Assembly: GCA_945863035.1 (NCBI GenBank)
Contig: CAMAZH010000034.1
Location: forward strand, 1-33,338
Reading direction: 5' to 3'
From: Chitinophaga pinensis
GTDB lineage: Bacteria > Bacteroidota > Bacteroidia > Bacteroidales > GCA-2748055
Length of the DNA stretch: 33,338 nt
Shown here: piece after piece, positions 9,401-26,758 of the stretch
Layout of the letters: every line of letters begins with the position of its first letter
Position numbering within the stretch: position 1 is the stretch's first letter
Program-made: the position numbers and the translations under genes
The notes under the pieces: generated by a model
What the model saw: only the letters and a program-made list of their open reading frames with translations
What the model was told of the DNA's origin: nothing
Database searches by the model: none

Positions 9401-10672
9401 TTATTTTTTACTATTCAGTTCCCCTCCCCCGATACGCAATTCCGCTAAACTTTGTGCGTGGTTTTTCACAACTCCGCCCCTGTGGAACTCCGGGTCATCC
9501 AATGGAGCATAAATCTCAAGACTTGATTGCAGCAATTGATCGTGATACAAGGCCCTCACTTCGTCAGGGTTCAGGGATGATCGGTAAATCAAAATATCTT
9601 TGTAATCGGCTGTAAACGGTGGAGCAGAACCTTCAGGGCCCGAACCTCCAAGGATTATTTCATCGGGCTGCAAAAACTCAGAAACCGATCCGACAGGATT
9701 TCCATTTACATAAAAAAACGTTTCGTGCCTTGCATAACTGTGAGTAAGGACCAGGTATTGCCAGCCTTTATTCTCTGAGCTTGTATCGGAAGTCAATTCC
9801 GTGGCGCGGGAAGAACGGTATGAAATTTTCCCGTCGAGGAAAGAAACCGATGTGGTTTGGCTTCCTGAATTAATAGCTGCGAGGAGTCCGTTATCAGTGC
9901 ACCTGACCTTCATTGAAACCGTAAAAGAGTGCAATGAATCCCTGCCGGGCAGATAGGAAAGCGGCTTATCAGCCACTTTTGCCTTCACCTGCAAACAGGA
10001 AGAGCTCCTGATTTTAACCGGAACCGGTTTGCCCATTTCCATAGCATCGAAAAGGGTTGGCACTATAGCGAAATAGAATTCCCTGTGTCCGGCCAGGTTC
10101 GGGTGGGCCTTATCCTGCATATAACCTGCGGCCCAATTACCTTTGCCATTGTCGATAGCACCCATAACATTAATGCTTGGCACGTCCCAGGTATGTATCA
10201 GGAGATTCATGTCCTTAACAGCTTTATACTGTTCGGGGCCAAAATCCTCCCTGGAATAACAGTTCACAACTATCGGATTCATGCCGGCATCCCGACACAT
10301 TCCAATAAGCCGGAGGAGGTTACTTCTGTATTGCTCAAAAATCCTTTTTCTTGTTAGTTCCTCATCCGATGCAATTCCCTCGTTACCGAGAGATAAGCCG
10401 ATTATAACATATTCAGCGTTTACCGGCAGCAGATCGGAATCAAACCTGGGCATTATTTTAAGGGTGTTATCACCTCCCCTGGATACATTAACCACCGTCC
10501 ATCCCCTGTTCCGCAAGGTGTCGCGCATCATTCCCGTATACCCGCCGTTACCGGTGGTGTCGCCAGACCCCTTTGCCACAGACGATCCGAAAACAGCAAT
10601 GGTTTTGTTTTGGGAGAACAAGGCAAAAGTGACAAGTAAAGCACAAACGAATAAAAAAATTCTTTTTGACAT
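9401..10672 (-). CDS. secreted SGNH/GDSL esterase with C-terminal LamG-like domain
   Basis: This 423-residue protein starts with a signal peptide (SKRIFLFVCALLVTFALFSQ). The SGNH hydrolase domain spans about residues 23-215. Block I is AVFGSSVAKG (Ser31 as nucleophile), block II Gly is in NVSRGGDNT, block III is GLSLGNEG (Asn97), and block V is DKAHPNLAGH (Asp187, His190). A concanavalin/LamG-like beta-sandwich follows from about residue 240 (FTVSMKVRC, GWQYLVLTHSYARHETFFYVNG, KDILIYRSSLNPDEVRALYHD). It probably removes acyl groups such as acetate from a glycan in the periplasm or outside the cell. No T9SS tail is seen. It is the last gene of the unit driven by the operator-promoter at 10871-10932, so it should be induced with the PUL. 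Confidence 0.88.
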   Translation of the reverse strand: MSKRIFLFVCALLVTFALFSQNKTIAVFGSSVAKGSGDTTGNGGYTGMMRDTLRNRGWTVVNVSRGGDNTLKIMPRFDSDLLPVNAEYVIIGLSLGNEGIASDEELTRKRIFEQYRSNLLRLIGMCRDAGMNPIVVNCYSREDFGPEQYKAVKDMNLLIHTWDVPSINVMGAIDNGKGNWAAGYMQDKAHPNLAGHREFYFAIVPTLFDAMEMGKPVPVKIRSSSCLQVKAKVADKPLSYLPGRDSLHSFTVSMKVRCTDNGLLAAINSGSQTTSVSFLDGKISYRSSRATELTSDTSSENKGWQYLVLTHSYARHETFFYVNGNPVGSVSEFLQPDEIILGGSGPEGSAPPFTADYKDILIYRSSLNPDEVRALYHDQLLQSSLEIYAPLDDPEFHRGGVVKNHAQSLAELRIGGGELNSKK

Positions 10673-10870: not shown

Positions 10871-10932
10871 TAAATGTAGCCTAACGGTCGCCGCAGGAGG
10901 TTTTTCATTCAATCAATTTGGTTTCTTGATCA
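10871..10932 (-). promoter_or_regulatory. candidate HTCS operator-promoter of the small ORF and SGNH gene
   Basis: Read on the minus strand, two half-sites, TGATCAAGAAACC (10932-10920) and TGAATGAAAAACC (10911-10899), lie in direct repeat exactly 21 bp apart. They are followed by exactly 20 nt and then TACATTTA (10878-10871), one base off the -7 consensus. The same geometry occurs at three other promoters in this locus. In this copy the distal half-site carries AGAAACC and the proximal one has a single change (AAAAACC). It predicts induction of the SGNH esterase with the rest of the PUL. Confidence 0.65.
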
Positions 10933-10933
10933 T

Positions 10934-10982
10934 CCAACCCGAGGAAGGCATACAGAAGGAGGCTTGAGAAAGCTTGGGTTGG
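10934..10982. other. inverted repeat between HTCS gene and operator
   Basis: CCAACCC (10934-10940) and GGGTTGG (10976-10982) are perfectly complementary. Between them lies an inner stem AGGCTT/AAGCTT with one G-T wobble, closing a GAGA tetraloop. There is no T-run on either strand. It may slow or end HTCS transcription, or protect a 3' end, but it could be incidental. Confidence 0.3.
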
Positions 10983-11069
10983 TAAGAATTTCCCCCAATT
11001 CCCTGTACCTTGGTTCACATTTAAATCACGACGGCATTCCATATAATCAAAGATGAGCGAATTTCTAAG

Positions 11070-14000
11070 CTAATCCTCAGCACTATTATTGTTTAGCCCC
11101 AACCTGACAGATCGATTTTCAGTTCTGAAATCACTTGGGGTTTTGCCAAATTGTTTTCGGAAGGATGTGCTGAAATGTTTGGCGTTGGTAAAACCACATT
11201 GGAAGGCAACCTCAGAAATCGAAAGTGAAGAATCAAGCAACATTCTGGCAGCCTTGCGAAGTTCAACTACCCGAACGAAATCCTGAATGGAACTGCCGGT
11301 TAGTGCTTTCAGCTTCCGGTACAATGCAGAGCGACTCATGCCGATCTCTCTGCAAAGGCCAATAACATCAACCGATTCCATATCGCTTTCCTTTTCGATC
11401 TGTGAAATGATTTTTTGCAGAAATTCCTCATCGAGCTTATTGCTGGTTACTTCTGACAGAACATAATCAACCTTGCCGGAAAATTTTAAACGAAGTTTTT
11501 TTCTTGACTCGAGAAGATTTTCAACGGTAGCCTTCAACACTTCCGGGTTGTAAGGCTTGGCAATATAGGCATCAGCGCCGCTTATCAGACCTGAAATCTG
11601 ACTTTCCTCGCCGCTTTTGGCCGTAAGAAGGATTACAGGTATGTGTGATGTAAACAGATTTTCTTTAACCTTCGCGCAAAACTCAATACCGTCCATTACG
11701 GGCATCATGACGTCCGAGATAATAATATCGGGAAGATACCTTAAGGCGAGTTCGAGACCCTCTCTACCGTCGCTTCCAGACAAAACACTGAACCGGCTTT
11801 TAAATTTATCAAACAGTATCTGTGCAACATCTGGATTATCGTCAACTATAAGAAGTATTGGCTTTTTATCATCAGTAAGCAACGCTGGATCTGTCAACGG
11901 GGTGTTATAAACGCCTTTTTCAGACAACGCGGAATAGTCCATCTTGAAATGATACATTAGTTCCTCCTTGATTTCCTCATCCGACAGGTGATCTTTACCA
12001 AGGGGAAGTGTTACCGTAAAGGTAGTGCCTATGTCCGGCAGGCTGCGCACTGTAATGGTTCCATGATGAAGTTCAACGAGCCGTTTGCTGAACGCCAGTC
12101 CAATGCCAGAGCTTTCGCTTTTAACAGGAGGGGCATCTTTCCAGGAAGAGTGAAAAAAACGCTCAAAAATCCGATCGATATACTCTTCGGGAATTCCAAT
12201 ACCCGTATCCGCGACTGATATTTCGGCATTAGGGGTATTTCCGGAGGATTCCGTCAAACAGGAATTGGTGGTGACCTTATAAATCAGTCGAATTGTTCCG
12301 CCGTCAGGAGTGCACTTGAAAGCATTGGATAGCAGGTTAAACATAACCTTTTCCATTTTCTCGGCATCGAACCATACCTCATGGCTCTCTTCACTTACCG
12401 AATATTCGAATGTGATATTCTTGGAGCGCGCAAGTTCTTCAAAACTCTCACCAATCCCTCGAAGAAACACACCCAGATTCCCTTTCGAAGCATTCAGTTT
12501 CATTAATCCGTTTTCGGCCTTTCTGAATTCAAGAAGCTGGTTGATAAGGAGCAGAAGGCGCTTGGCATTCTTACCTATGTTGTTCAATGTTTCCGTTTGA
12601 TTATCGGCAGTATTGCTTATCAGATTATCAAGGTGTCCAAGAATAAGTGTAAGCGGTGTTTTGAATTCATGGGAGATGTTAGTGAAAAAACGAAGCTTCA
12701 TCTGGTTTAACTCCTCAATTTGCTCTTTTCCTTTTCTCTCCAGGATAAGTTGATGTTTAACCTGAACCCATGCCGTGTTGTACCTCATGAAAAGCAGGAA
12801 AGAGCCGAGAATAAGTGATGCATAAATTAAAAAAGCCCACCACGATTTCCACCAGGGAGGCAAAATCCGTATTTTCAGGATGGTGGGAAATTCAGAAACA
12901 ATTCTGTCACTGTTCATTGCCTTAACCATAAAGGTATATTCACCGGGCCGGAGGTTGGCGTAATTGGCCTGCATGATGTCGGCAAAATCGGTCCACTCCG
13001 GCTCAAAACCAAGCAATTTCCATGAATACATGTACTTCCCCTTATTGATAAATCCCAATCCGCTGAAATGAATGGAGAAATTCGAATTTTTGTGTGGAAG
13101 CCTGATTCTCTCCGTGAGGAACAATTGTTTTATTAAAGGGCCATCGGGCTCTCCAACCGCAACCGGCCGGTTTGATATTGATAATCCGGTAAGCACAACC
13201 ACCGGCGGATGGGTGTTAATAACAAGGTCTCCCGGATAGAAAGCGTTAAAACCATCAATACCTCCGAAATAAATTTTTCCATCCCGGCTTCTGAGAGCAG
13301 AGTTCTGGTAAAACTCATTTCCCTGAAGGCCATCCGCAGCCGAATAAGTGCGGAAACGGGATTCTTCAATCGCCATACTAACAATACCCTTATTGGTGGA
13401 GAACCAGAACATGCCCGTGTTATCCTGCAGGATTGCATAAACCACATTAGGCAGGTTTTCACGTCGCAAAAGAAATCTGAACGACTCGGTCACGGGATCA
13501 AGGATACAAATCCCCCCTCCTTCGGTTCCAATCCAAACATTTCCGTCACGGGCCTCATAAATGGATAATACCCGATTATGGATCAATGAACTGCTGTCCC
13601 CGGGAGAATGAACAAATACCCTAATTTCCTCCGTTTCAGGGTCCAGCCGGTTTAATCCTCGGTTTGTACCCAACCATAGTATCCCATTCTGATCAAGACA
13701 TGCCGATTTAACGGTATTATTGGAAAGAGTCGAATTGGTGGAAGTATATCGTCTAAGTTGATTTGATGATTTATCAAAAATATATATCCCCCCAAGGCTT
13801 GTGAAACACATCTTATTTCCGGGAATTTCAATAATAGAATAAATACTGGCTTTTTGTAACGATTCGTTTTTATCGTCAGGATGGGAAAACTTTCTGAATT
13901 TCCTCCTTTTCTTATCCAGGATACTGATGCCTCCTCCATAAGTTCCAAGCCATAACATTTCAGAACTGTCTTCGTGAATACACAAAACCGTGTTTGAACT

Positions 14001-15230
14001 TAGTGAGCTTGAGTTTTCCTTATTGACAGAATACGAGGTAAATTTCTCGGAAACCGGATCAAACAGATTCAAGCCGCCAAGCGTGCCGATCCAAATGTTC
14101 CCGGCCCGATCCTGCATAAACGACCTGACATGATTATCGGTAAGACTTTGCTCATCATTTAATCGGTGGCGTATGGGCTTAAACTTCCAATCAAACTTGC
14201 TGCTGTAGTTTAAGCCTCCGGCATAGTTCCCAATCCATAAGCCCTTGTAACGATCAAAATAAATCTTATATACTGAGTTGTTGCTTAGGCTGTTGGGATT
14301 GTTGGGATCGCTGATTTCGTGAACGATTTCCCGTGAAACCGGATTAAAAATATTTAAGCCCCCGCCATCGGTCGCTATAAGGATTTCGCCCCCGGGAGAA
14401 CGAACAATATCAACAATCATATCGTTGGAAAGTCTCGAGTTTTCTGTTGTCAAATACTCAAGTGACCTTCCTGATTTTTGATAAAGTATCAATCCGCGAT
14501 CGGTTCCAAGCCATAGTGTGCCATGTCCATCATCAAACATCTTCTGAATTCGGGCGGACAAGAAGCGCCCTTGGAAAAGAACAGGGTGAATTGAGTTCGA
14601 CAGTGAGTTAAACCGGAATAGTCCATCGAGTGTTCCCAACCAAAACAAAGTATCCGATTCGATGAGTATATTCCTTATCCTTCCCGCATTTAGTCCTGAA
14701 TTTAGAGGGTTTGAATACACAACCGGCTCGAAATCCCGCTTTTCCTCATTGAAAATATTTAGTCCGCCACCCTGAGTACCAACCCAGATAGCATTTTTTG
14801 AATCCTCAGCAAAACACAGAATATTGCTGATACTGATATGGCTACTATCGTTTTGGAGAAAATTACAGGGCAGGAAATCATCCTCCTCATGCTGATAAAG
14901 ATATGCGCCTCCCTCCTGTGTCCCTACCCAAAACCGGCCCTGCGAGTCTTTAAACAGGGTATTGATATAGGCATCTCTCAAGGAGCTGTTTCCCAGATCG
15001 TATGTCCGAAATGTATTTCCATCATACCTGTTCATTCCGCTTCGGGTGCCTACCCACAAAAAGCCATAATCATCTTCCAATATAGCATAAACGGAGTTGT
15101 GAGAAAGGCCTTCATCGGAAGACAAATGCCTGAAAAAATAATCCCTTTCCTGTGCAAACGCCATCAAAGACCCAATGTGGAGCAGCAGAACGATACATAC
15201 ATGGATTCTGATTTTCAAGTCCTTGAACAT
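11070..15230 (-). CDS. hybrid two-component system sensor/regulator (HTCS)
   Basis: This 1386-residue inner-membrane protein combines sensor and regulator. A signal peptide (residues 1-27, ending AFAQ) is followed by about 14 propeller repeats (Reg_prop, motif F/L/I-W-x-G-T, residues ~30-665). A Y_Y_Y domain (~715-790) and one transmembrane span (~797-815) come next. Then follow HisKA (H854 in TNISHEFKTPLTL), a HATPase (N969, ADTGIGIP, SSGIGLAFS), a receiver domain (phospho-acceptor D1173 in IISDVMMPVMDG, K1225 in AKPY) and a C-terminal AraC-type HTH (SISEVAFQCGFTNAKHFSTSFRKQFGKTPSDFR). All catalytic residues are present. Relatives bind glycan fragments in the periplasm and activate their PUL. 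The frame extends to a TTG at 15284, but ATG at 15230 gives a proper signal peptide. It is the obvious candidate to bind the four 21-bp direct repeats in this locus; its own promoter lacks one. Confidence 0.96.
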   Translation of the reverse strand: MFKDLKIRIHVCIVLLLHIGSLMAFAQERDYFFRHLSSDEGLSHNSVYAILEDDYGFLWVGTRSGMNRYDGNTFRTYDLGNSSLRDAYINTLFKDSQGRFWVGTQEGGAYLYQHEEDDFLPCNFLQNDSSHISISNILCFAEDSKNAIWVGTQGGGLNIFNEEKRDFEPVVYSNPLNSGLNAGRIRNILIESDTLFWLGTLDGLFRFNSLSNSIHPVLFQGRFLSARIQKMFDDGHGTLWLGTDRGLILYQKSGRSLEYLTTENSRLSNDMIVDIVRSPGGEILIATDGGGLNIFNPVSREIVHEISDPNNPNSLSNNSVYKIYFDRYKGLWIGNYAGGLNYSSKFDWKFKPIRHRLNDEQSLTDNHVRSFMQDRAGNIWIGTLGGLNLFDPVSEKFTSYSVNKENSSSLSSNTVLCIHEDSSEMLWLGTYGGGISILDKKRRKFRKFSHPDDKNESLQKASIYSIIEIPGNKMCFTSLGGIYIFDKSSNQLRRYTSTNSTLSNNTVKSACLDQNGILWLGTNRGLNRLDPETEEIRVFVHSPGDSSSLIHNRVLSIYEARDGNVWIGTEGGGICILDPVTESFRFLLRRENLPNVVYAILQDNTGMFWFSTNKGIVSMAIEESRFRTYSAADGLQGNEFYQNSALRSRDGKIYFGGIDGFNAFYPGDLVINTHPPVVVLTGLSISNRPVAVGEPDGPLIKQLFLTERIRLPHKNSNFSIHFSGLGFINKGKYMYSWKLLGFEPEWTDFADIMQANYANLRPGEYTFMVKAMNSDRIVSEFPTILKIRILPPWWKSWWAFLIYASLILGSFLLFMRYNTAWVQVKHQLILERKGKEQIEELNQMKLRFFTNISHEFKTPLTLILGHLDNLISNTADNQTETLNNIGKNAKRLLLLINQLLEFRKAENGLMKLNASKGNLGVFLRGIGESFEELARSKNITFEYSVSEESHEVWFDAEKMEKVMFNLLSNAFKCTPDGGTIRLIYKVTTNSCLTESSGNTPNAEISVADTGIGIPEEYIDRIFERFFHSSWKDAPPVKSESSGIGLAFSKRLVELHHGTITVRSLPDIGTTFTVTLPLGKDHLSDEEIKEELMYHFKMDYSALSEKGVYNTPLTDPALLTDDKKPILLIVDDNPDVAQILFDKFKSRFSVLSGSDGREGLELALRYLPDIIISDVMMPVMDGIEFCAKVKENLFTSHIPVILLTAKSGEESQISGLISGADAYIAKPYNPEVLKATVENLLESRKKLRLKFSGKVDYVLSEVTSNKLDEEFLQKIISQIEKESDMESVDVIGLCREIGMSRSALYRKLKALTGSSIQDFVRVVELRKAARMLLDSSLSISEVAFQCGFTNAKHFSTSFRKQFGKTPSDFRTENRSVRLGLNNNSAED

Positions 15231-15250
15231 CCGGGCAGTATTTATGATTG

Positions 15251-15258
15251 TAAATATA
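15251..15258 (-). promoter_or_regulatory. possible -7 element of the HTCS gene
   Basis: On the minus strand TATATTTA is one base off TAnnTTTG and lies 20 nt before the preferred ATG at 15230. The nearest TTG upstream is 23 nt away, slightly too far. It lies inside the longer TTG-started frame, which supports the downstream ATG as the real start. Confidence 0.35.
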
Positions 15259-15444
15259 ATCGATATGTTCACATCGGGTTGCAAGAAATATCTTTATTAC
15301 GAAAAATTATGAGTGTTAAGGGATTCTGTACATCTTTTTGCTTGTGTTCAAATCCATGAAACAGCAACCGGGATAGTCTGAAAAGCTAATCTCGATTCAT
15401 GAGCATTGGGGATTATCTGAATAGGGCTTATCAAATCTGTCAGC

Positions 15445-17712
15445 TTAGTTATAAAAAATCCTGCCTGAAAAAAGATGACCCTGAGAATTCACAGAGACCA
15501 TATAAATCTGGGGCAACAGGATACCCAGTGGGAACACCCTTATCCTGTCATCCAAAACTTGGACTTTCGTGGATATCATCTGCCCAGCCATATTATACAG
15601 GTTTACAATAGGGTTCAAGGGTTTTGAATTGTCAGGAAATATAAGATCAATGCTCTTGTCCTGATTGATTACGACAAAGCACTTATTCTTTTCCTGCTCC
15701 CGACTGTTTTCAATGCCTTCCACTCCAAGCTGCACGGAAGGTATTGCAAGGCTTACTTCATTGCTCCAACTCGAATACCCGCCTTCATTGTATGAACATA
15801 TCCTGTAGGTATAGGTTTGGATGTTGGAAATATGCTTTTTCCATTCTTTAATAAAAAACTCGGCCATCCAGTTTTCTATCAGAGGATCGGTGGACGATCC
15901 TGTCGGAGTATGTCCGGCACCTTCGATAGGGTGCAATTCGAACGACACGTCCGCACGACTCAGTTCATCAGCAAGATCCAGGCTATTCTGATATGGGATT
16001 GTCGGGTCGGCTGTACCATGAATAATACAGGTTGGGATGTCCAATTCATCAACAGGATATGCCCATTCCCTCATTTCCGGCTCCAGGCTCCCCCATAGGT
16101 CAGTCAGGGCAACAACACCGGATTTGCTCCAGTTTACTGAAGGATCAGCTTCATCGGGTCCATTAAAATAAGCCAGCGTGATACCAATTCTCCCCCCCGA
16201 GGATCCCCCGGCAAGAAACACGAGATTGGGATCAAAACCATATTCAGTGGCATTCGTTCGCAACCAGGAAAGAGCTGAATTCGCATCCCTCGTTGCATCC
16301 TGCAATGCAGGGAACTCCGAAGCCTGGGTCGGCATATCGGCTCCATCCCGCAAACGATAATCAATGGACGCACATACATAACCCCGCTTCGCGAAATTCT
16401 GGCAATACCGCACAATGTATGACTGAGTGCGGGACGACCCTGTTCGGAATCCTCCCCCGTGAATAAACATTAGTACCGGCCTGTTCTTTGAAGTATCGGA
16501 ATCTGGCTGATAAATATCCATATAGAGGGGAATATTTTTGCCTTTGTAATCAACAACATCCGCGAATTTGACTCCGGAAATCGTTTTCACCGATGGGAAT
16601 CTTTGAGAATGGAAAAGATCAGGATTCACAAACGGATCAAGAAGTTCATTCTCAATGCCATTGTTCCATTGGGTGGAATTCGCTCCGGGCCAACCTACCT
16701 CCATATAAAAACCATTCAGAGGTTTCCGTTGCACAATGAAACCATCTTCGTTGGAAGCGTTGTCAGTCCATGAAAACCGGAATTGCAGGGCCGCCGTTTG
16801 TCCGTTAAATGAGCTTGGGGCAAGAGGGGAAGGAACAAATTCCTTCGTAAGAACCGATACCTCATTCGAATATTCGGAAAACCCAATATCGTTTAATGAA
16901 AAAACCCTGTAACCGTAGCTTGTTTGTTCGACCAATCCTGTATCTGAATAATGATTGGAATTGGAGGGTGTTGAGTCGATGGGTGCGAAATCTCCGGAAT
17001 TCGTTTTTCTTTCGATAACAAAATATTTCTCGTTGTTTGAACTGTCAGACCAGTTGAGGTTAATCTGTTTCCAAGATGAAGCCAGGGCGGTAAGGTTCGC
17101 AGGGGCTTTCGGGGGAAGGAAGCTTGCCTCTGAAACCATTACCAGCTCAGGCATGCTGGAAGATGCATCTTTGCTGTTAAAACTAATCTGCTTATTGGTG
17201 GAGTTGGCGTCATAGACGACTATGCTAATAGCCTCATCGCCGTTAATCTGTGTCTGCACATATTGGGTAACATCCAACTCGTAATATTGTCCGTTGGCAT
17301 TAACAGATATATTCCCGAGGGAGTTCCCTATGGAGGGGGCATTGCTCCAGGTTATATCGGACTCCGTCCAGTTATCATCTGTTTCATATACCGTAACATC
17401 AATCACATCGCCCGACACAGCATACAATCGCAGCTTGGCGCTCTGCAACCCGGTAATTCCGCTACCAGCAAGATCAAACTTAAGAAATGTCTTCCGGTAA
17501 AAGTCAGATACACTGCCTTTCTTAACCACCAATACCGCTTCATTGCCAAAGTTCACATCAGCGCTGGCCCCTCCCCGCACGTATGCATCGTCGGAGGGGT
17601 AATAAACCTGCGCGAAAGATATTTTTGTGCAAAATATAAAAATTAAAATTGCCAGTCCAAGCAATGGCATTCCCGAAATACTATTTTCTGATCTCATTTT
17701 GCTTTTTCTCAA
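15445..17712 (-). CDS. secreted alpha/beta-hydrolase esterase with CBM96-like and FnIII modules, T9SS tail
   Basis: This 755-residue modular protein has a signal peptide ending SFAQ (residue 35). A DNRLRE/CBM96-like module spans ~36-195 (DDAYVRGG, TFLKFDL, DDNWTESDITWSNAP, YYELDVTQYV). A complete FnIII domain spans ~200-290. A second FnIII starts at ~296 and is interrupted after ~350 by a catalytic domain of about 275 residues, then resumes at ~628-657. The catalytic domain is esterase/lipase type: oxyanion HGGG (418-421), nucleophile S505 in GGSSGG, D569 in HGTADPTIPY and H601 in GAGH. A T9SS type A-like tail closes the protein. It should remove acyl or feruloyl-like esters from a polysaccharide outside the cell. 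Its start overlaps the upstream gene by 32 nt (ATG at 17697 is an alternative), so the two are cotranscribed. It is the last gene of the operon. Confidence 0.9.
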   Translation of the reverse strand: MRKSKMRSENSISGMPLLGLAILIFIFCTKISFAQVYYPSDDAYVRGGASADVNFGNEAVLVVKKGSVSDFYRKTFLKFDLAGSGITGLQSAKLRLYAVSGDVIDVTVYETDDNWTESDITWSNAPSIGNSLGNISVNANGQYYELDVTQYVQTQINGDEAISIVVYDANSTNKQISFNSKDASSSMPELVMVSEASFLPPKAPANLTALASSWKQINLNWSDSSNNEKYFVIERKTNSGDFAPIDSTPSNSNHYSDTGLVEQTSYGYRVFSLNDIGFSEYSNEVSVLTKEFVPSPLAPSSFNGQTAALQFRFSWTDNASNEDGFIVQRKPLNGFYMEVGWPGANSTQWNNGIENELLDPFVNPDLFHSQRFPSVKTISGVKFADVVDYKGKNIPLYMDIYQPDSDTSKNRPVLMFIHGGGFRTGSSRTQSYIVRYCQNFAKRGYVCASIDYRLRDGADMPTQASEFPALQDATRDANSALSWLRTNATEYGFDPNLVFLAGGSSGGRIGITLAYFNGPDEADPSVNWSKSGVVALTDLWGSLEPEMREWAYPVDELDIPTCIIHGTADPTIPYQNSLDLADELSRADVSFELHPIEGAGHTPTGSSTDPLIENWMAEFFIKEWKKHISNIQTYTYRICSYNEGGYSSWSNEVSLAIPSVQLGVEGIENSREQEKNKCFVVINQDKSIDLIFPDNSKPLNPIVNLYNMAGQMISTKVQVLDDRIRVFPLGILLPQIYMVSVNSQGHLFSGRIFYN

Positions 17713-19108
17713 AGTAATTTACCAATGCATACCGGTTCATATTCAGCTTTTTCATGTGATCGGTAAGCCCGGGATAGAAATGGTAATAATTGTCTACAAC
17801 CCCCTTATTGGAATCATTATTCGACGGGTCGGCAGTAAGATCCAACGGATCGTTGTCCATATACCTGAACCAGTGCCACCCTACACAGTTGTTCATCTTA
17901 AGCAGTTCCATGCAAAAATTCTCGTAGTGTATCCCTCTGTCGTCCTGAGTTTTCACCCTCCAACCTGCACCTGAAATATTTGGCAATCCGGAGTCGTCTC
18001 CCTTGGTATAAAATTCCGTAATCAAAACAGGCCGGTCTGCCCATCCTCCCCAGGTAGCAAAATGCCCGGGATCCGGTTCCCAGTAACCATAATAATTGAT
18101 TGAAATAATATCCATATATTTTGCCGACGCGCTGATTATGCTTTTAATGTTTTTGGGACGTCCATGGAACCGACATCCCAGATACATGTGATTGGGATCG
18201 TGTTTTTGAAGAACCAGCGACACCGTTGAAAAATACTGTTCAGCCGCAATGCCCAGGAACTCCTTTCGTATGGAGTCATCAATCATTGAAGTGGTGATCC
18301 TGTTTTTCAGAAGCCAGTTTTCCGCAGCCTTTTTATTGGGATCATTTTTGTTGGGTACAGCAAGGTACTCATCCAATATAGATACCGAAAACGGCAACTC
18401 GTTATCTGAAAAATGTCCCAAAAGGTTGGGATCATCTTTTGAGGAGGCAATTGCTTCCCCCATTTTCATACAATAGCGTTTAAAAGCAGGATCAAAAACG
18501 GCAAATGAAATGCTGTCGTTTTTTGTTTTTATTCTTTCCCGCTGATACCCGGAGTAAAAGTTCCATATTTGCGTGTATGCCAAAGGAGGGGCCGTACTTT
18601 TGTTACTGTGTTGCAAAAGAGGTATGTCAGACCAGCATGCGGTACCGTTAAAATCCAGGTTGGCAATTTCCTCATGGGTGTTTTCCGCCCATTTTTCATC
18701 GGTAACAAATTGCTCCTTCAAAGCATTCATGTTTCTTGCCGACTTACCCGGCCGCACACCGTTCACAGCTGCGTTAATCCCTGCATAGCCCTCAGGATCA
18801 ATAACCCACCAGCGGTCTCCGATTTTGGAAACATAAAAAAACCCGGTTGCTAAAGTACGCAGTTCAGGATTACTCCCATACTTTGTGAAGCCTCCTTCAC
18901 TAACCGGGATGAACCCGGGAAGAATATCGATGGTTTTCCCGCTAAACGCCATCCATTCCGAGTAATGCACAACCCCCTTAACCTTACTCCATTTACTTGC
19001 ATAAACCGTTCTTTCCGAAATCTCCGATGTTCCTGTCTGCTGAGCAATTCCCGGAAAAGGAATCAGCAAAAGTAAAAGGATCAGGGTATTCAACTGGCGT
19101 TTCTTCAT
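17681..19108 (-). CDS. agarase-like glycoside hydrolase, clan GH-A fold (GH50-like)
   Basis: This 475-residue secreted enzyme has a signal peptide ending PGIAQ. The motif GDRWWVIDPEGYAGINAAVNGV (residues ~97-118) is typical of agarase-type enzymes, where a beta-rich segment leads into a TIM barrel. The likely acid/base is E237 in LGHFSDNELPF and the likely nucleophile E365 in RPVLITEFYTKG; both are at strand ends, as expected for clan GH-A. Other barrel motifs are YLGCRFHGRPKN, MDIISINYYGYW and VGWHWFRYMDNDP. These resemble GH50 and related agarases, but distant similarity cannot fix the substrate; galactans such as agar or porphyran are possibilities. No T9SS tail is seen. The start codon overlaps the beta-helix gene's stop in a 4-nt overlap, so translation is probably coupled. 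Confidence 0.8.
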   Translation of the reverse strand: MKKRQLNTLILLLLLIPFPGIAQQTGTSEISERTVYASKWSKVKGVVHYSEWMAFSGKTIDILPGFIPVSEGGFTKYGSNPELRTLATGFFYVSKIGDRWWVIDPEGYAGINAAVNGVRPGKSARNMNALKEQFVTDEKWAENTHEEIANLDFNGTACWSDIPLLQHSNKSTAPPLAYTQIWNFYSGYQRERIKTKNDSISFAVFDPAFKRYCMKMGEAIASSKDDPNLLGHFSDNELPFSVSILDEYLAVPNKNDPNKKAAENWLLKNRITTSMIDDSIRKEFLGIAAEQYFSTVSLVLQKHDPNHMYLGCRFHGRPKNIKSIISASAKYMDIISINYYGYWEPDPGHFATWGGWADRPVLITEFYTKGDDSGLPNISGAGWRVKTQDDRGIHYENFCMELLKMNNCVGWHWFRYMDNDPLDLTADPSNNDSNKGVVDNYYHFYPGLTDHMKKLNMNRYALVNYFEKKQNEIRK

Positions 19109-21462
19109 TGAATTGTAAAATTAGTTTGTCTGAAAGTATCATCATTGCACGTTACCCTGAGAATATACATACCCGTGGAACAACCAATTTCAATAGGAGA
19201 AATGTGAAATCCCATTTCACTGTTGTCCGGGAAAAACTCTTTATGCCAAATATGTTTCCCATCGATTGAATAGATATCTGCACGGGTTCTGCCCGGAGGG
19301 ACGCCTTTTAAAGTCGCCATAAGAATAGAACCTGCAGGGTTGGGGAAAACCACCAGGCGGGAGGGCGAAAAAGCGTTGATATCCGACAAAGGGCCGGTAT
19401 ACTCAAAGGCCCCACGATCGGGCAAGGAGTAAAAGGGAACGGGATTGCCGACCAAATCAAAACCGGCTGTACCTGTTATAGACTTTCCGGAGTTTATCTC
19501 AGGAGAATCCTTGCTTAAACGGTAAATCAGACAGGAATCGAATCTTGTTGTTATATCAGCTGCCCCCGCGAACAAGGGATCAGCGGAATGTTTATGCGGG
19601 TCGGTGGGCAGCCCGGTCACCGATGCTCCTGAAAAAGTATTGTAATCGAAGATGTTTCCTGTGCTGGCTCCGAGATCAACTGTTGCTCCCGTTCCCAGGG
19701 TATGGAAAATATTGTTGTAATAACGCGTGTTGGCTACATATCCTTCCCAGCTTTTATGCCAGATCAGTACCGGGTTGGCTATCTGGCTTCCGCTTATGAC
19801 CGTGTTGTTATAAACACTTAGGTTAGTAGCCATCCCTGATGCCCGGATAACGTGATCATGATTATCTTTCATGACATTATACCGGATGATGGTACCTTCA
19901 TTGAAGCCATTGCTTGACAGAGGTCCGCCCGTGATCAGGAGTGCCCCGAATTCGTTATCGTGCGAGTAGTTGTACTGAATTATGGTGTGCTTGGTGTTAT
20001 AATCGCTGTCGAACCCGCCGGCATCCGCATCACCCTCGTTATATTTCGTGAAACAGGCTTCGTTGTATTGCCACACGGCGCTGTCGGTGTTGAAGTTAAA
20101 GCTTGCATTTCCGGAGCCTTTAATGGCACAATGGGTGAAAAGGTTATATTCCATAATCGGTTTATTGGCAACCCTAACAATCAGACCATTGGCGCCTGTT
20201 CTTTCAAAAACATTGTTCCGAATGAGAATATTCTCGCTCGGCACCCAATTGGTGTTTGTGGTAAGGGTTCTGCCGCTCCATGATGACTTATTTGAACAGC
20301 CCGTCCTGTCAACATCGTGGATATAACAGCCTTCTATCACGAGGGAGTCAAACCAGGTAGGCTTATGCGAGCCCGCGATTTCCAGAAATATTCCCCCGTT
20401 GTTTTTTGATATCTCCCCTTCCATACTGCCGTTAACATCTGAAATCTCCAAATCCCGGAGAACAATGTGCCTCACAGCACCCTGATCTTCTGCCAGGATA
20501 TAAAGGGCTCTTCGGAAAGCGACCGATGAGCCCATATTCGTGAGATGGAGGTTTTGAAGTTCAATATATTGCTGATTGGTAAGTTGCACTGTATTTTCAA
20601 CCCTGCCCATTCCTGCAATAATGGGTTTTGCCCCTGTTCCATATTTTGTTACAACAATAGGTTGCCCTACCATACCGCTCCCTCCAAAAGAAAGTAAACC
20701 TTCCCATGTGCAGCCCGATTTGAACAGTATGGAGTCGCCGGGTTCGAAAACCATATCGCTCAATTTCCCGAGGCTTTTCCATGCTTCGTCCGGGGAAACA
20801 GCAGAATTCGAATCATCGCCCAAAACAGAATCGATATAATACGAACCCTTTCGATGAACTGCAACAGGACCAATTGTGAGTTCAAGGAATGGCCCGTTTC
20901 CGGACGCATTTTCTTTTGAATGCCATTTTGTATCCTTGGTTGAAACAGAGCCCGCCACATCTTTAAGAATGAAGGCGATTCGCTGTTTTCCGCTTTTCAA
21001 TGAAAGATTCACATAACGGGAAACATCCCAGGAATAATAACCTTCGCCCGCCTCAAGAACTTCCTCTCCGATAAATACTCCCGCAGGTCGCGTGTTCCCG
21101 GTCAGCGCTTCCTCAGACCAAGCTGTGTCGGTAGAATAAATCTGAACTTTTTTACTCTCGAGCACTTTGCCATAAAGCTTCAGGAGGGCTGAGGAATAGG
21201 TAGTATCGGGACTGCCAAGGTTAAACAACAAATACGTTTCTCGGGTAAACTCATTGGAAGCTATGCTTTTTCGGGTGATGAGGGTATCTTTGTCAAGAAC
21301 TCCGTAGATGTTGTCTGCTTTTAATCCCCCGGCAAAAATATAACAATCCTCATCGGGAAGAAGTTGAATCTGACTAAACCCTGGATTCATGCTTAGCATA
21401 AGAAAAAGTAATTGAACTACTATTCCTTTCGCTTGTAAAATGAAATTTTTGATGAGGCTCAT
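19105..21462 (-). CDS. secreted right-handed beta-helix protein with CBM96-like module, T9SS tail
   Basis: This 785-residue protein has a signal peptide (to residue ~30, NPGFSQ). A DNRLRE/CBM96-like module spans ~33-198 (DEDCYIFAGG, TYLLFNL, DTAWSEEALTGNTRP, GYYSWDVSRYV). A right-handed parallel beta-helix spans ~205-690, starting YYIDSVLGDDSNSA and containing many coil repeats such as NILIRNNVFERTGANGLIVR, IIQYNYSHDNEFGALLITGG and GTIIRYNVMKDN. A T9SS type A tail begins at LVVFPNPAGS (~703). Beta-helix enzymes of this layout include polysaccharide lyases and glycosidases; I cannot place it in a family or name its catalytic residues with confidence. Asp/Glu/His-rich turns at GDADAGGFDSDYNTKHT (~477-493) are candidates. 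It is the first gene of the three-gene operon, driven by the operator-promoter at 21541-21602. Confidence 0.87.
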   Translation of the reverse strand: MSLIKNFILQAKGIVVQLLFLMLSMNPGFSQIQLLPDEDCYIFAGGLKADNIYGVLDKDTLITRKSIASNEFTRETYLLFNLGSPDTTYSSALLKLYGKVLESKKVQIYSTDTAWSEEALTGNTRPAGVFIGEEVLEAGEGYYSWDVSRYVNLSLKSGKQRIAFILKDVAGSVSTKDTKWHSKENASGNGPFLELTIGPVAVHRKGSYYIDSVLGDDSNSAVSPDEAWKSLGKLSDMVFEPGDSILFKSGCTWEGLLSFGGSGMVGQPIVVTKYGTGAKPIIAGMGRVENTVQLTNQQYIELQNLHLTNMGSSVAFRRALYILAEDQGAVRHIVLRDLEISDVNGSMEGEISKNNGGIFLEIAGSHKPTWFDSLVIEGCYIHDVDRTGCSNKSSWSGRTLTTNTNWVPSENILIRNNVFERTGANGLIVRVANKPIMEYNLFTHCAIKGSGNASFNFNTDSAVWQYNEACFTKYNEGDADAGGFDSDYNTKHTIIQYNYSHDNEFGALLITGGPLSSNGFNEGTIIRYNVMKDNHDHVIRASGMATNLSVYNNTVISGSQIANPVLIWHKSWEGYVANTRYYNNIFHTLGTGATVDLGASTGNIFDYNTFSGASVTGLPTDPHKHSADPLFAGAADITTRFDSCLIYRLSKDSPEINSGKSITGTAGFDLVGNPVPFYSLPDRGAFEYTGPLSDINAFSPSRLVVFPNPAGSILMATLKGVPPGRTRADIYSIDGKHIWHKEFFPDNSEMGFHISPIEIGCSTGMYILRVTCNDDTFRQTNFTIQ

Positions 21463-21540
21463 TATTTGCTTTTTAATATTTCCCCGTTAGGATCAAAACA
21501 CCTTCCTTCGCAAGTTAAATTAATCTCTATAGCAAGAATT

Positions 21541-21602
21541 CAAAAATAATATCAATATCGCAAATCAAGGTTTCTCGATTGTCCACATTAGTTCGTGAAC
21601 CA
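21541..21602 (-). promoter_or_regulatory. candidate HTCS operator-promoter of the beta-helix operon
   Basis: On the minus strand the proximal half-site CAATCGAGAAACC (21581-21569) is followed by exactly 20 nt and then TATTTTTG (21548-21541), a perfect TAnnTTTG. A weak distal half-site lies 21 bp upstream (21602-21590, with the conserved AAC core). The stretch TGGACAAT-nn-AGAAACC is shared with the susC promoter at 15 of 17 positions. The predicted leader to the ATG at 21462 is about 75 nt. Confidence 0.7.
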
Positions 21603-21815
21603 TTCATACAATGGGAGCATCCTGATTAGAAGAGCTCAAAGAAAAACATATTTACCGGCAAATTACCTGAACACTGCGGATGTTTCAGCGACTGAATGAC
21701 ATCAACGCAACAGTGAGCCACGACTCATGTTATAAATCTGTTTATCTGCACCTTACCCCATATGCCATAGCCGTTGCATTTAATAAAATCAGCTTGAGCC
21801 GAAAAGGTTTTAGGG

Positions 21816-21877
21816 CAGTCTGACAACCTAAATGGACAATTTAGAAACCAGGTTGAATATAATAATGTATAAGTTTG
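21816..21877 (+). promoter_or_regulatory. candidate HTCS operator-promoter of susC
   Basis: Half-sites CAGTCTGACAACC (21816-21828) and CAATTTAGAAACC (21837-21849) lie 21 bp apart. The second is followed by exactly 20 nt and TAAGTTTG (21870-21877), a perfect -7 element. Conserved positions are shared with the three other copies. The promoter ends 44 nt before the ATG at 21922 and lies inside the longer frame that starts at 21832, so it also decides the susC start. Confidence 0.75.
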
Positions 21878-21921
21878 CTCATCATAGTTTTCCTCTGACA
21901 ATTAAACCCATTGTTACCATT

Positions 21922-24915
21922 ATGAAACCAAAACTACTCAATCTCCTGCTTCTCTTATTATTCTGGAATGGTGTAAACGCTCAAAACATACGCGTTTCAG
22001 GAAAGGTTTCCAGCAAGGATAACGGGCTACCTCTTCCGGGAGTCAACGTTGTTGTTTCAGGTTCCACCAGAGGCACGATCACCGACATTGATGGTATCTT
22101 TAATATTGACGTGAGCCTTGATGACATTCTCAGCTTTTCATCCATGGGATTTTCCACACAGAAAATTTCGATTAATGGCCAGACGCAAATCAATGTAGCT
22201 ATGTCGCCCGACGAAAAACTAATGGATGAAGTAATCGTAATTGGTTATGGGTCGAAAAGGAAAAGTGATATTATCGGGTCGGTTTCGACAATAAAACCCG
22301 ATGAATTGAAAGCAGCTCCTTCTTCCAACCTGCAGGGTTTGCTTACCGGGAAGGTTCCAGGAATGTATGTTTCAGTAAGTAGCGCCCGGCCAGGGGGCTC
22401 GTCAAATATTACAATAAGGGGATTAAACTCCCTGAAAGGAAGTACTGAACCATTATATATTGTGGACGGGATTCCGGTTACCTCTGTTAATGAGATTAAC
22501 ATTAACGATATTGAATCGATAAGCGCATTAAAAGATGCCTCCTCGCAGGCAATCTACGGTGCCCGGGCTTCGAATGGGGTTATTCTCATAACAACTAAGC
22601 GGGGAACCGACTCCAAAGGTAAAATAAACGTTTCCTACAGCGGATATATGAGCGTTCAGAATGTTAAACCGAATTTTGAATTGTTTTCGGGGGATGAATT
22701 CCTTCAACTTCGAAGGGAGGCCTTTAGGGGCGATTCGGCAAGCAGTTCGAATGGTTGGCTCGGGGATTATCCCGACGACAACTCTATGTTTACTCTGCTT
22801 GAACAGGAAAACATCGAAAAAGGGAGAGTGGTTGATTGGCTTGATCTGGCTTTTATCAAAAATGCGCCCCTCATTAAGCACGACTTTTCATTTTCAGGTG
22901 GGAATGAAAAGACAAAGTACTCTGCATCGCTAGGCTATTTCGATCAGGAAGGGGTAAGGTACAGCTCAGGTTACAAGCGTTATTCGGGTAAGTTACAGAT
23001 CGACCAGGAAATCTCGGAGTGGATCAATGTTGGCATGTCGTCTTATTACACCAGTTATGTTCAGGATCAGGAAAACAGTTCATGGACTGACTTCATGGTG
23101 TTTTCGCCCGTTGCGAAATTATATGATGAAAAGGGTAATTTGGAGCTGTATCCCTTAGGTGATGAGAAATCAGTGAATCCCCTGTGGTGGAACCGTACCC
23201 GGAAACTTCAGAATATTGCCAACAGAGGCATATACTCGGGCTATTTGGAAATAGCTCCGCCAGTTATTCCGGGATTAAAATACCGTATGAATCTGAGTTT
23301 TGATATCCGAAATAATGAAAACGATGATTTCCGGAGTCTGGCCGATCCCAGCAATTACCTTGGAAAAGGGCTTGCAGAGGTGGAGATTTCATCAACAAAA
23401 AACTATCTCATAGAAAACATAATCAGCTATGATAAAAAAATCGGGGAAAATCACAGGCTTGATTTTACTATGCTGCAGAGCGCATACGAAAGGAGTTGGA
23501 CAAACACCCGAAGCAGTGCCACCCAGCTGGGAAATGATTTCTTTGGCATAAACAGTTTAAATTCGGCAATCGAATCGCAAGTTAACAGGAGTGTTAACAG
23601 TCGTACCATGCTTTCCTATATGGCTCGGGCGAACTACATTTTAAAGGATCGCTACCTGCTTAATTTCACGATAAGGACTGATGGATCCTCTGTTTTTGGT
23701 GCCAATGACAAATGGGGAAATTTTCCTTCCGCCGCATTTGCATGGAATATCGACAAAGAATCATTCATGAGTTCGATAAACTGGATTAACGAGTCGAAAA
23801 TCCGCTTAAGTTGGGGGAAAATAGGAAATGAAGCAATATCGCCTTATGGCAGCCTTGCCACTGCCGAAAAGGTGTTTTATGTGAGCAACGGGAATCCCAT
23901 TGTCGGATATTTGCCCGGCAGCAGCCTTCCAAATCCAAATTTGAAATGGGAAACCACTACAACACTTAATGCCGGTTATGATTTCTCTCTTTTTTCCGGC
24001 CGGTTAAGCGGTGAGTTCGACCTTTACAAACGAAACACAACCGATTTGCTTGTTGACAGGAGCCTACCCTCCGGGTTGGGTTATACTTCGATGCCTGATA
24101 ACCTTGGTGAAATTGAAAACAAGGGCTTTGAACTGGCTCTGAACGGCTATCCTGTTTCGGGAGAGAACTTTTCATGGAGAGTGGGTGGCAATATCTCTGT
24201 AAATAAAAACAGGCTTGTTAAAGGTGTATTGCAGGATAGTGCCGGCGTTTACATTGATGATGTGTCAAATCGCTGGTTTATTGATCAACCTGTCCGTGTT
24301 TATTACGACTACCAATTTGACGGGATTTGGCAGATCGGCGATGATATTGCCAATTCACATATGCCACTGGCGCGCCCCGGGGATGTTAGGGTAGCCGACA
24401 CCGATAAAAACGACTCTATTACCTCAGCTGACAGGGTTATAATAAATAGGGAACCTAAATGGATTGCATCGGTTAATACTGCTATAACCTATAAAAACCT
24501 CAGATTATCGGCCGATTTATATATTGTTCAGGGAGTTACAAGAAGCTCTGAGTTTATGTCCGAATATAATTACGGAGGAAGCTTGCAAGGTGTATTGAAT
24601 GGTATTAAACGGGATTATTGGACGCCTGAGAATCCGTCGAACACAACCTTCAGACCCCATTCCTCAACATTGTCGGATTACCGTGGGTCGCTCGATTACA
24701 AAGACGCATCCTACATAAGGCTTTCAAATGTAACCCTGACCTATTCGCTTCCACAAAGATGGACCGAAAAAGCCCGGATGTCTTCCGTTAAATTTTATGT
24801 GCGTGGGGATAATCTGCTTACCATAACCGATTATTTGTCGTTAGGACCCGAAACAAACCCCGACGACTATCCTGAAACCGTGAATTACACTATAGGTCTC
24901 AATATTAATTTTTAG
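21922..24915 (+). CDS. SusC-family TonB-dependent outer-membrane transporter
   Basis: This 997-residue protein imports oligosaccharides across the outer membrane using TonB energy, in complex with the SusD-like lipoprotein encoded next to it. Visible parts are a signal peptide (KPKLLNLLLLLLFWNGVNAQ), a carboxypeptidase-regulatory-like domain (~23-95, GLPLPGVNVVVSGSTRGTIT), a TonB-box-like DEVIVIGYG (~102-110) and a plug domain (~128-228, with IRGLNSL and LYIVDGIPV). The SusC signature ALKDASSQAIYGARASNGVI and a 22-strand barrel region follow, ending NYTIGLNINF. Length is normal for the family. An upstream ATG at 21832 would add 30 residues before the signal peptide and lies upstream of the -7 element, so it is rejected. 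It is directly controlled by the operator at 21816-21849. Confidence 0.97.
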   Translation: MKPKLLNLLLLLLFWNGVNAQNIRVSGKVSSKDNGLPLPGVNVVVSGSTRGTITDIDGIFNIDVSLDDILSFSSMGFSTQKISINGQTQINVAMSPDEKLMDEVIVIGYGSKRKSDIIGSVSTIKPDELKAAPSSNLQGLLTGKVPGMYVSVSSARPGGSSNITIRGLNSLKGSTEPLYIVDGIPVTSVNEININDIESISALKDASSQAIYGARASNGVILITTKRGTDSKGKINVSYSGYMSVQNVKPNFELFSGDEFLQLRREAFRGDSASSSNGWLGDYPDDNSMFTLLEQENIEKGRVVDWLDLAFIKNAPLIKHDFSFSGGNEKTKYSASLGYFDQEGVRYSSGYKRYSGKLQIDQEISEWINVGMSSYYTSYVQDQENSSWTDFMVFSPVAKLYDEKGNLELYPLGDEKSVNPLWWNRTRKLQNIANRGIYSGYLEIAPPVIPGLKYRMNLSFDIRNNENDDFRSLADPSNYLGKGLAEVEISSTKNYLIENIISYDKKIGENHRLDFTMLQSAYERSWTNTRSSATQLGNDFFGINSLNSAIESQVNRSVNSRTMLSYMARANYILKDRYLLNFTIRTDGSSVFGANDKWGNFPSAAFAWNIDKESFMSSINWINESKIRLSWGKIGNEAISPYGSLATAEKVFYVSNGNPIVGYLPGSSLPNPNLKWETTTTLNAGYDFSLFSGRLSGEFDLYKRNTTDLLVDRSLPSGLGYTSMPDNLGEIENKGFELALNGYPVSGENFSWRVGGNISVNKNRLVKGVLQDSAGVYIDDVSNRWFIDQPVRVYYDYQFDGIWQIGDDIANSHMPLARPGDVRVADTDKNDSITSADRVIINREPKWIASVNTAITYKNLRLSADLYIVQGVTRSSEFMSEYNYGGSLQGVLNGIKRDYWTPENPSNTTFRPHSSTLSDYRGSLDYKDASYIRLSNVTLTYSLPQRWTEKARMSSVKFYVRGDNLLTITDYLSLGPETNPDDYPETVNYTIGLNINF

Positions 24916-25025
24916 CATCATATAACTCGAATGTCATGAAACCCGCATCTTTTTCAAAGCCAGCAGTTTTTAATTCCAAGTCGGATGCATCCGGATTCAA
25001 GCAAACATTTAAAACCAATTTGGTC

Positions 25026-26657
25026 ATGATACAGTTTACCCGAAAATACACGTTATTTCTTTTCTTATTGCTCCCCATGCTATGGGCATGCGAAAACTTT
25101 TTGGAAGAGGTCAATCCTGCTGAAATCACTACGGATTTCCTATACACAACAAAAGCTGGGCTACAGAATGCCGTGAATGGTTTGTATGCGTTGGAACGCA
25201 ACCAGGTTGATGATCAGGAAAGCACTTATTTTGCTCTTATCCAGGGCGATGGAGGGACAGACATCGACTTTATAAGGGCCGCTGTCTCATCCAACCTTGC
25301 ACGCTATCGGGAAGATGTGGATCTGACAACAGAAGCGGCAGTTAGGAGCTGGTGGAGAAAATGGTATACCATAATTGAACGAACCAACAGCATAATCATC
25401 AACGGAAACAAGGCGGAAATAACGGAAATCGAAAAAAAAGAAATATTACGTGAAGCCTATATTCATCGTGCAAATGCATATTTCTGGCTGCTACGCAAAT
25501 TCGACAATATATGGCTAAACCTGGAGGCCACCGATTACTCGAATCTTTCAGGCAGAACATACGTTGCTGCAAACCAGGAGGATGTTTACAAAGTAATAGT
25601 TTCCGACCTTGACTCGGCAATAAGTTATTACGGAACGAACTACAGCACCATTCCTGGCAAGTATGGCCTGGGTGCAGCATTGTTCCTGCGAATCGACGTT
25701 GCATTGTGGCAGAAAGACTACGTTACTGCCGGAACATTGTCTGAGAAATTGATTAAGGAGGGACCTTACACCTTGGTGGAACCTGCGGAAATATTCACAA
25801 AGGATGGCCGCAATTCCAGTAAAGAGACTATTTACGCTCTGCAATTGGATGAATTTGCACAGGGCGGGGCTATACCGACCACTTCAGGAAGCACCGGGCA
25901 TCGCCTTCCCTTGACTTTCACAACCCAATACCGTTCGGTGCCGGGAATGATTAAAGCCACAGAATTGGGTGGCTATGGATGGGCCCGAATTGCAGCCAAC
26001 GAATACCTGACAGGTCTGTACGACCCGACCTACGATAAAAGATACGATGCCTTCTGGCAACATTATTACCAATATAATGACCCGGCTTTCAATTATGCGG
26101 GAACTGGCTATCAACTGGGTGACACCCTTAAGCCCAATCAAAACAGTTCGCTCACAGGAATTAATTTTTACATTAACGCATCGGTCAGTTGCAAGAAATA
26201 CTGGGACTGGAATAAAGATCCGGATGTAAGGATTTCGTACAACAATATTATCGTTTACCGGTTTGCCGAAGTTTACCTCATGGCGGCAGAGGCCTTTCTA
26301 AAATCGGGAGACATGACAAAGGCCCGATACTACATTAACCTCCTGCGGTTTAACAGGATAAACGCCGGTGCTCCCAACAGACTGTGGGTTAATTTTACCG
26401 AAGACCGGTTACTTGAGGAATATGCGCGGGAAATGGCATTTGAGGGCCGTCGGTGGTTTACCCTGAAACGATTTGGCAAACTGGTCGAACAGGTTCGTTT
26501 GCACGGCGGACAGTCCTCCTTCAGGGGAATGCCATCGCCAGATCCAAATTATTTTATCGGGAGAAGTAATATCCAGGATTATCATCTCAGGTGGCCCATC
26601 CCTCAATCCGAAATTGATGCAATGGGAGGAACCTTTATGCAAAATGACGGGTATTAA
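25026..26657 (+). CDS. SusD-family glycan-binding outer-membrane lipoprotein
   Basis: This 543-residue surface lipoprotein caps the SusC pore and binds the oligosaccharide. The lipobox is LWAC, with lipidated Cys22 followed by ENFLEEVNP. The TPR-rich SusD core is recognisable from DFLYTTKAGLQNAVNGLYAL, the helix EILREAYIHRANAYFWLLRKF and IIVYRFAEVYLMAAEAFLKSGD. The C-terminal portion has the typical LLEEYAREMAFEGRRWFTLKRFGKL and ends with a WPIPQSEIDA motif. The frame could begin at an ATG at 24936, but that places 30 charged residues before the signal peptide; ATG at 25026 is preferred. It follows susC by 110 nt and is almost certainly cotranscribed. Confidence 0.96.
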   Translation: MIQFTRKYTLFLFLLLPMLWACENFLEEVNPAEITTDFLYTTKAGLQNAVNGLYALERNQVDDQESTYFALIQGDGGTDIDFIRAAVSSNLARYREDVDLTTEAAVRSWWRKWYTIIERTNSIIINGNKAEITEIEKKEILREAYIHRANAYFWLLRKFDNIWLNLEATDYSNLSGRTYVAANQEDVYKVIVSDLDSAISYYGTNYSTIPGKYGLGAALFLRIDVALWQKDYVTAGTLSEKLIKEGPYTLVEPAEIFTKDGRNSSKETIYALQLDEFAQGGAIPTTSGSTGHRLPLTFTTQYRSVPGMIKATELGGYGWARIAANEYLTGLYDPTYDKRYDAFWQHYYQYNDPAFNYAGTGYQLGDTLKPNQNSSLTGINFYINASVSCKKYWDWNKDPDVRISYNNIIVYRFAEVYLMAAEAFLKSGDMTKARYYINLLRFNRINAGAPNRLWVNFTEDRLLEEYAREMAFEGRRWFTLKRFGKLVEQVRLHGGQSSFRGMPSPDPNYFIGRSNIQDYHLRWPIPQSEIDAMGGTFMQNDGY

Positions 26658-26696
26658 AAAATTAAACAACGGAATAATCCCTGTGTAGCAATTTAT

Positions 26697-26758
26697 CAAA
26701 TCAGAAACCTATTTGAACAAATCAGAAACCCCTTAAACAAGGTTTAACAATACATTTA
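26697..26758 (+). promoter_or_regulatory. candidate HTCS operator-promoter of the 1561-residue surface protein
   Basis: Two identical 13-mers, CAAATCAGAAACC, lie at 26697-26709 and 26718-26730, exactly 21 bp apart in direct orientation. After exactly 20 nt comes TACATTTA (26751-26758), one base off the -7 consensus. This is the cleanest copy of the shared operator. It starts 39 nt after the susD stop codon and predicts a separate but co-induced transcript with a leader of about 85 nt. Confidence 0.75.

Follow-up and report, generated by a model that had tools for sequence, protein, structure and literature searches.

Four promoters of a Chitinophaga pinensis polysaccharide utilization locus share a direct-repeat operator in fixed register with the -7 element, the probable site of the HTCS encoded beside them

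The window analysed here, a whole 33,338-nucleotide stretch of contig CAMAZH010000034.1 from the Chitinophaga pinensis assembly GCA_945863035.1, contains a polysaccharide utilization locus (PUL). The locus encodes an HTCS on the reverse strand at 11070-15284, in an open reading frame that opens at TTG 15284 and has its likely ATG start at 15230. A single chain carries a Reg_prop propeller sensor, Y_Y_Y, HisKA, HATPase_c and Response_reg domains and an AraC-type HTH, and the receiver contains a SHIP motif, the S/CHIP motif of the HTCS family, at residue 1213. The putative target genes form four transcription units. The first, a reverse-strand operon at 15445-21462, encodes a protein with CBM96 and a right-handed beta-helix related to GH136 lacto-N-biosidases (19105-21462), a protein without a Pfam match (17681-19108) and a CBM96 protein with a BD-FAE type esterase domain (15445-17712). 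On the forward strand are a SusC-like TonB-dependent transporter (21922-24915) with a SusD-like lipoprotein (24936-26657), and a large DUF5018-repeat protein with a type IX sorting tail (26847-31532), while a GDSL-like esterase with a Laminin_G_3 domain is encoded on the reverse strand at 9401-10672. The relatedness of the beta-helix protein is to the GH136 lacto-N-biosidases of PDB entries 7v6m and 6kqs. A small protein at 32070-32438 has no Pfam match, and by eye resembles a HigA-type antitoxin or an XRE regulator.

Upstream of each of these units, in the sense orientation and with predicted leaders of about 40-200 nt, lies one 62-bp operator-promoter; an earlier note on this DNA had described the four, and their coordinates and strands all read from the sequence as given there. 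The one serving the CBM96/beta-helix operon occupies 21541-21602 on the reverse strand (distal copy 21590-21602, spacer 21582-21589, proximal copy 21569-21581, a 20-nt gap, and the -7 element TATTTTTG at 21541-21548) and scores 31.5 bits with an operator-only matrix. That of susC-susD is at 21816-21877 on the forward strand, with its distal copy at 21816-21828, its proximal copy at 21837-21849 and the -7 element TAAGTTTG at 21870-21877. The gene for the secreted DUF5018-repeat protein has a forward-strand site at 26697-26758 (distal copy 26697-26709, proximal copy 26718-26730, -7 element TACATTTA at 26751-26758), the best-scoring site at 41.0 bits by the operator-only matrix. The site of the GDSL-type gene, immediately downstream of the HTCS gene, is at 10871-10932 on the reverse strand (distal copy 10920-10932, proximal copy 10899-10911), and its -7 element at 10871-10878 again reads TACATTTA. 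The layout is the same at all four, 13 + 8 + 13 + 20 nt followed by the -7 element, and the exact 20-nt distance claimed between the proximal half and TAnnTTT(G/A) is found at every one; two of the -7 elements are exact matches to TAnnTTTG, and two end in A instead of the consensus G. All 13 columns that had been called invariant are invariant across the four sites: AAC at 10-12, A15, TG at 18-19, A24, A28, AAA at 30-32 and CC at 33-34. The longest susC open reading frame opens at ATG 21832; because this ATG sits inside the operator (AAATGGACAA), the true start is probably at 21922, which agrees with the signal peptide. An automatic gene caller could misplace the susC start at 21832.

The description of the operator as a direct repeat holds for its register, which is 21 bp at all four sites, but its strength is uneven: the two copies agree at 13 of 13 positions at 26697, at nine at 10871, at eight at 21816 and at five at 21541. 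Identity being perfect at 26697 only, the distal copy is judged the weaker of the two. The half-sites of 13 bp likewise stand as a layout, 13 + 8 + 13, but the repeat unit is nearer 17 bp. A TGRA-like box occurs also on the 5' side of several distal copies, and the G of box A is kept 21 bp further upstream in eight of ten aligned sites; this recurrence lengthens the unit from 13 to about 17 bp, approximately TGAACAATnnnGAAACC, and leaves a gap of 4 bp. Within each copy, box A (TGAAC) and box B (GAAACC) are separated by about one helical turn. The two HTHs of an AraC-type domain would call for such a distance, and presumably each HTH takes one box.

AT-rich intergenic DNA yields many weak matches to loose patterns, and chance similarity among AT-rich promoter regions has to be weighed for this reason. 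Markov-shuffled promoter regions gave at most three invariant columns with the gap fixed at 20 nt (2,000 trials) and at most four with the gap left free (300 trials), a null that is generous because many shuffles contained no -7 match at all; from base composition, with 3 real -7 combinations x 41 possible gaps, the chance probability is near 1e-11. The earlier note had called for a whole-genome scan, and a pattern search of the genome (4.19 Mb in 241 contigs, about 92% complete) found no other promoters with the 62-bp architecture. The exact pattern occurs four times, always inside the window, and its reversed control does not occur in the 4.19 Mb; a 53-bp pattern that includes the -7 element, with up to three mismatches allowed, again returns the four window sites only, against one match for the control. 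A short 25-mer pattern was rejected as a query, being too permissive at three mismatches in the window or one mismatch in genomes. Genome-wide uniqueness, together with the exact geometry found in other genomes and the cross-training of matrices described below, leaves chance with practically no probability, and the genome searches already refute it. About ten further HTCSs are encoded in the genome, and no comparable motif was found at their loci. Nor did the matrix find the operator in the upstream region of the HTCS gene itself, which was also read for it.

Two HTCS orthologs stand out among 198 relatives, those of genome G145, from another family of the order (55% identity over the whole HTCS), and G026, from the same family (45% identity). 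Relatives of the beta-helix protein adjoin the HTCS ortholog in both. A matrix built from the four window sites only selects exactly four top sites in G145, at 35-38 bits with the next at 22, and all four share the 13-8-13-20 geometry; in the reverse direction, a G145 matrix picks out all four sites of the window, although two score no more than 24-28 bits, close to other matches. In G026 the locus itself holds two sites, and a third lies on a different contig. This third, unlinked copy, at 4160-4221 (-) of locus L219 (G026:C53), lies upstream of a gene for a secreted SASA-type acetylesterase, which is likely an extra member of the regulon. The statement that the motif defines the regulon is true of the C. 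pinensis genome, with four sites in its approximately 92% complete assembly, but at least one relative, G026, has an unlinked member.

A search that began from the pattern, in 393 genomes of the order, found clusters of at least three matches only in the window genome (G000), G145, G322 and G385, with two matches in G026; the remaining genomes of the 393 gave singletons only, at the level of the reversed control. G322 and G385 were picked by the motif alone, and an HTCS ortholog was then found in both, at 54% over the whole chain in G322 and at 57% over the C-terminal part in G385, where the gene is cut by the contig end; these two genomes are close relatives of each other, not independent cases. 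G242, of the same genus, has no motif and no HTCS ortholog. The operator-only matrix, built without the -7 element, finds 20 strong sites in five genomes, three to five in each genome with an ortholog. The strong sites adjoin a gene start, upstream and on the same strand, and the TA of the -7 element lies exactly 20 nt downstream in 19 of the 20, the sole site with a 21-nt gap being that at 16844 (+) of L203 (G145:C8). A site just downstream of the HTCS gene is present in all five genomes (the window genome, G145, G026, G322 and G385). At this site in G145, G322 and G385 (L203 14329, L340 1374 and L343 1503), the -7 element is TAATTTAG, not TAnnTTT(G/A), and is kept in all three. The scan of relatives that the earlier note proposed has in this way returned the same motif and geometry beside orthologous HTCS genes in G145, G026, G322 and G385.

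The motif also follows the DNA-binding domain among close relatives. Across 94 HTCS loci, the three closest DNA-binding domains, those of G145 (65%), G026 (59%) and Carboxylicivirga sp. M1479 (50%), have the recognition-helix segment N-x-K-H-F-S-T in common, and in the ranking by motif their loci take places 1, 2 and 4. The Carboxylicivirga site is a susC promoter, reading ATTATGAACCGTTTAAAAACC ATTACGAACGCATTTAAAACT, 20 nt, and TAATTTTG. Taken over all 94 loci, domain similarity and motif score show no rank correlation (rho -0.06), which is what a separate motif for each HTCS would produce; only the top relatives lend support. The nearest loci from the contig search have just 32-37% identity over the HTCS, and mostly other operators. 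At an HTCS locus of Pelobium manganitolerans (L075), where the DNA-binding domain falls outside the closest set, AATTnTTAAACC repeats with a 21-bp period occur at 14351 (+) and about 6292 (+), 20 and 21 nt before the -7 element.

The motif is known from sequence alone, and its owner could be an unlinked regulator that happens to act on this locus, such as a stand-alone AraC-type protein or a repressor. We consider this improbable: the motif cluster accompanies the HTCS ortholog in five genomes and is absent from G242, which lacks it; the more alike the HTCS DNA-binding domains are among the top relatives, the more alike the motif; apart from the HTCS, regulator calls in the window are limited to one Fur-family gene and one RelA/SpoT gene; and HTCS-linked promoters in general, unlike controls, are enriched in the 21-bp spacing, as detailed below. 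Phylogenetic footprinting, whole-genome specificity and the tracking of domain similarity by the motif all point to the HTCS at 11070-15230, to which the site had originally been attributed, as its probable owner.

To place the operator within the promoter, we used as controls 120 TAnnTTTG promoters of the order (L280-L299), from regions not chosen for HTCS genes. In these, TTTG is most frequent 23 nt ahead of the -7 TA (8 occurrences, against a mean of 1.2 per position); the empirical -33 spacing in generic TAnnTTTG promoters of the order is 19 nt. The AACC of the proximal copy spans -24 to -21 before the -7 TA, which is the -33 slot to within one base, and a -33 TTTG is absent at all four sites, AACC occupying its slot. 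Of the 27 HTCS-linked promoters in which the 21-bp repeat is strong, none has TTG in the slot, as against 21% of the controls. That the operator may replace the -33 element, as the earlier note held, is thus supported by position, the link of the proximal copy to the -33 slot being positional only.

Two other explanations bear on this slot. A GAAACC near -35, where the -33 TTTG is absent, could serve an alternative (ECF-type) sigma factor as its -35 element and not be an activator site, since ECF -35 elements are often AAC-rich. A sigma factor, however, would have no need of the conserved second copy 21 bp upstream; the -7 element belongs to the sigma-ABfr type, domain calls in the window include neither an ECF sigma nor an anti-sigma domain, and the motif tracks the HTCS, all of which makes an ECF promoter very improbable. 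Alternatively the HTCS may bind these sites but act chiefly in repression, or in a dual role, and keep polymerase off the -33 region until the glycan arrives. The proximal copy does overlap the -33 slot, and one Bacteroides thetaiotaomicron HTCS without the consensus interface is reported to repress its genes (PMC11253607), but at all four promoters there is no -33 TTTG to block, and the SHIP motif, tied to suppressed DNA binding in the unstimulated state (PMC11253607), is present here. We give repression a small probability, and favor activation.

The same register appears in a pooled set of 457 TAnnTTTG promoters from 150 HTCS loci across Bacteroidota, comprising 90 first loci and 60 validation loci, where the evidence is statistical rather than per-locus and its design was settled partly after data were seen. 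In the zone from -36 to -17 before the -7 element, a lag of 21 bp gives the highest identity of all lags from 13 to 35, both in the 90 and in the 60 loci. Among the 457 HTCS-linked promoters, those with at least 10/17 identities number 62 at lag 21 and 9-27 at other lags, and those with at least 13/17 number nine at lag 21 and zero or one at other lags, making 21 bp the sole strongly enriched repeat spacing. The 120 control promoters have no 21-bp excess (4 at lag 21, range 1-9). A histogram of where the best 21-bp repeat falls in 35 promoters was not retained, since half-site edges are ill-defined and the positions scatter as a result; the pooled position profile is clearer. The shared register suggests that HTCSs in general may work in the manner of XylS, as activators that take over from -33 recognition. 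We lean, with some reserve, toward the broader reading that HTCS promoters across Bacteroidota are one class, with an HTCS-specific repeat of 21-bp period in a fixed register and its proximal copy standing about 20 nt ahead of the -7 in place of the -33 element, so that HTCSs would be phylum-wide XylS-type activators of promoters without a -33 element. If that is true, HTCS operators could be predicted from a single genome by searching for the 21-bp register.

For the locus itself we hold with high confidence that the 62-bp element is an activator-dependent PUL promoter, bound by the AraC-type domain of the HTCS and working as follows. The periplasmic propeller would sense a glycan, and the phosphorylation that ensues would release the DNA-binding domain. 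The AraC-type domain of the HTCS encoded at 11070-15230 would then bind as a head-to-tail dimer to the two TGAACAATnnnGAAACC-like copies, which lie 21 bp, or two helical turns, apart. Its proximal box B would occupy the slot that holds the -33 TTTG in ordinary sigma-ABfr promoters, 20 nt ahead of the -7 element, and the bound dimer, through its proximal monomer, would recruit RNA polymerase in place of -33 recognition, much as XylS does at Pm (PMC5481539). The four transcription units would thereby be switched on together. Presence of the SHIP motif agrees with a published scheme in which the unphosphorylated receiver masks the recognition helix (PMC11253607). The sequences themselves show the motif, its geometry, its conservation, its specificity and link to the HTCS ortholog, and the lack of TTTG; binding by the HTCS, the head-to-tail orientation of the dimer, control by phosphorylation and activation are inferred from them. 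HTCSs are major regulators of glycan harvesting in Bacteroidota, and accounts of their action at promoters have mostly stopped at the binding of a direct repeat. Here operator and -7 element are locked together base by base across several genomes, with the same register in pooled HTCS promoters, and the outcome is a testable model of activation, by replacement of -33 recognition, as well as a sequence-based route to predicting HTCS operators, regulons and inducible promoters, also outside gut Bacteroides.

Direct-repeat HTCS operators with 21-bp spacing are a kind known since 2013, when they were predicted for 16 HTCSs of B. thetaiotaomicron with an average spacing of 21 bp (Ravcheev et al., PMC3878776), among them those of HTCS_Rgu-1, with two 12-bp sites and a 9-bp spacer, and HTCS_Man, with two 16-bp sites and a 5-bp spacer; motif similarity was found to follow the HTH domain. 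Some B. thetaiotaomicron HTCSs bind promoters with predicted sites in EMSA (PMC5061871, PMC11253607). The present case has the sequence-level features of these operators: a two-site direct repeat with centres about 21 bp apart and the same spacing in relatives, a position upstream of PUL units that adjoin the HTCS gene, retention at orthologous HTCS loci (G145, G026, G322 and G385), and a motif that follows the HTH domain, the nearest three of 94 ranking 1, 2 and 4. It differs in its GAAACC-type sequence and in coming from a different bacterial family. A fixed distance to the -7 element and occupation of the -33 slot were not found described in the searched passages of PMC3878776, and would seem a useful addition to what is known of HTCS operators.

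The promoters themselves resemble sigma-ABfr promoters of Bacteroidota in their -7 TAnnTTTG, at -12 to -5 (PMC7366714, PMC9723704), and differ from them in the missing -33 TTTG, whose slot is filled by the AACC of the operator. Among AraC-family activators, the layout resembles that of XylS at the Pm promoter of Pseudomonas putida, whose two direct repeats also recur every 21 bp (15 + 6 bp) and each hold a box A and a box B (PMC5481539). Here too the proximal site overlaps the -35/-33 region and the distal one lies a 21-bp period upstream, a likeness of geometry only. XylS binds its proximal site first, and the sites of XylS and polymerase overlap (PMC5481539). XylS is a soluble sensor of benzoate acting at sigma-32/sigma-38 promoters (PMC5481539), whereas the C. 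pinensis regulator is a membrane HTCS and its promoters carry a sigma-ABfr -7 element.
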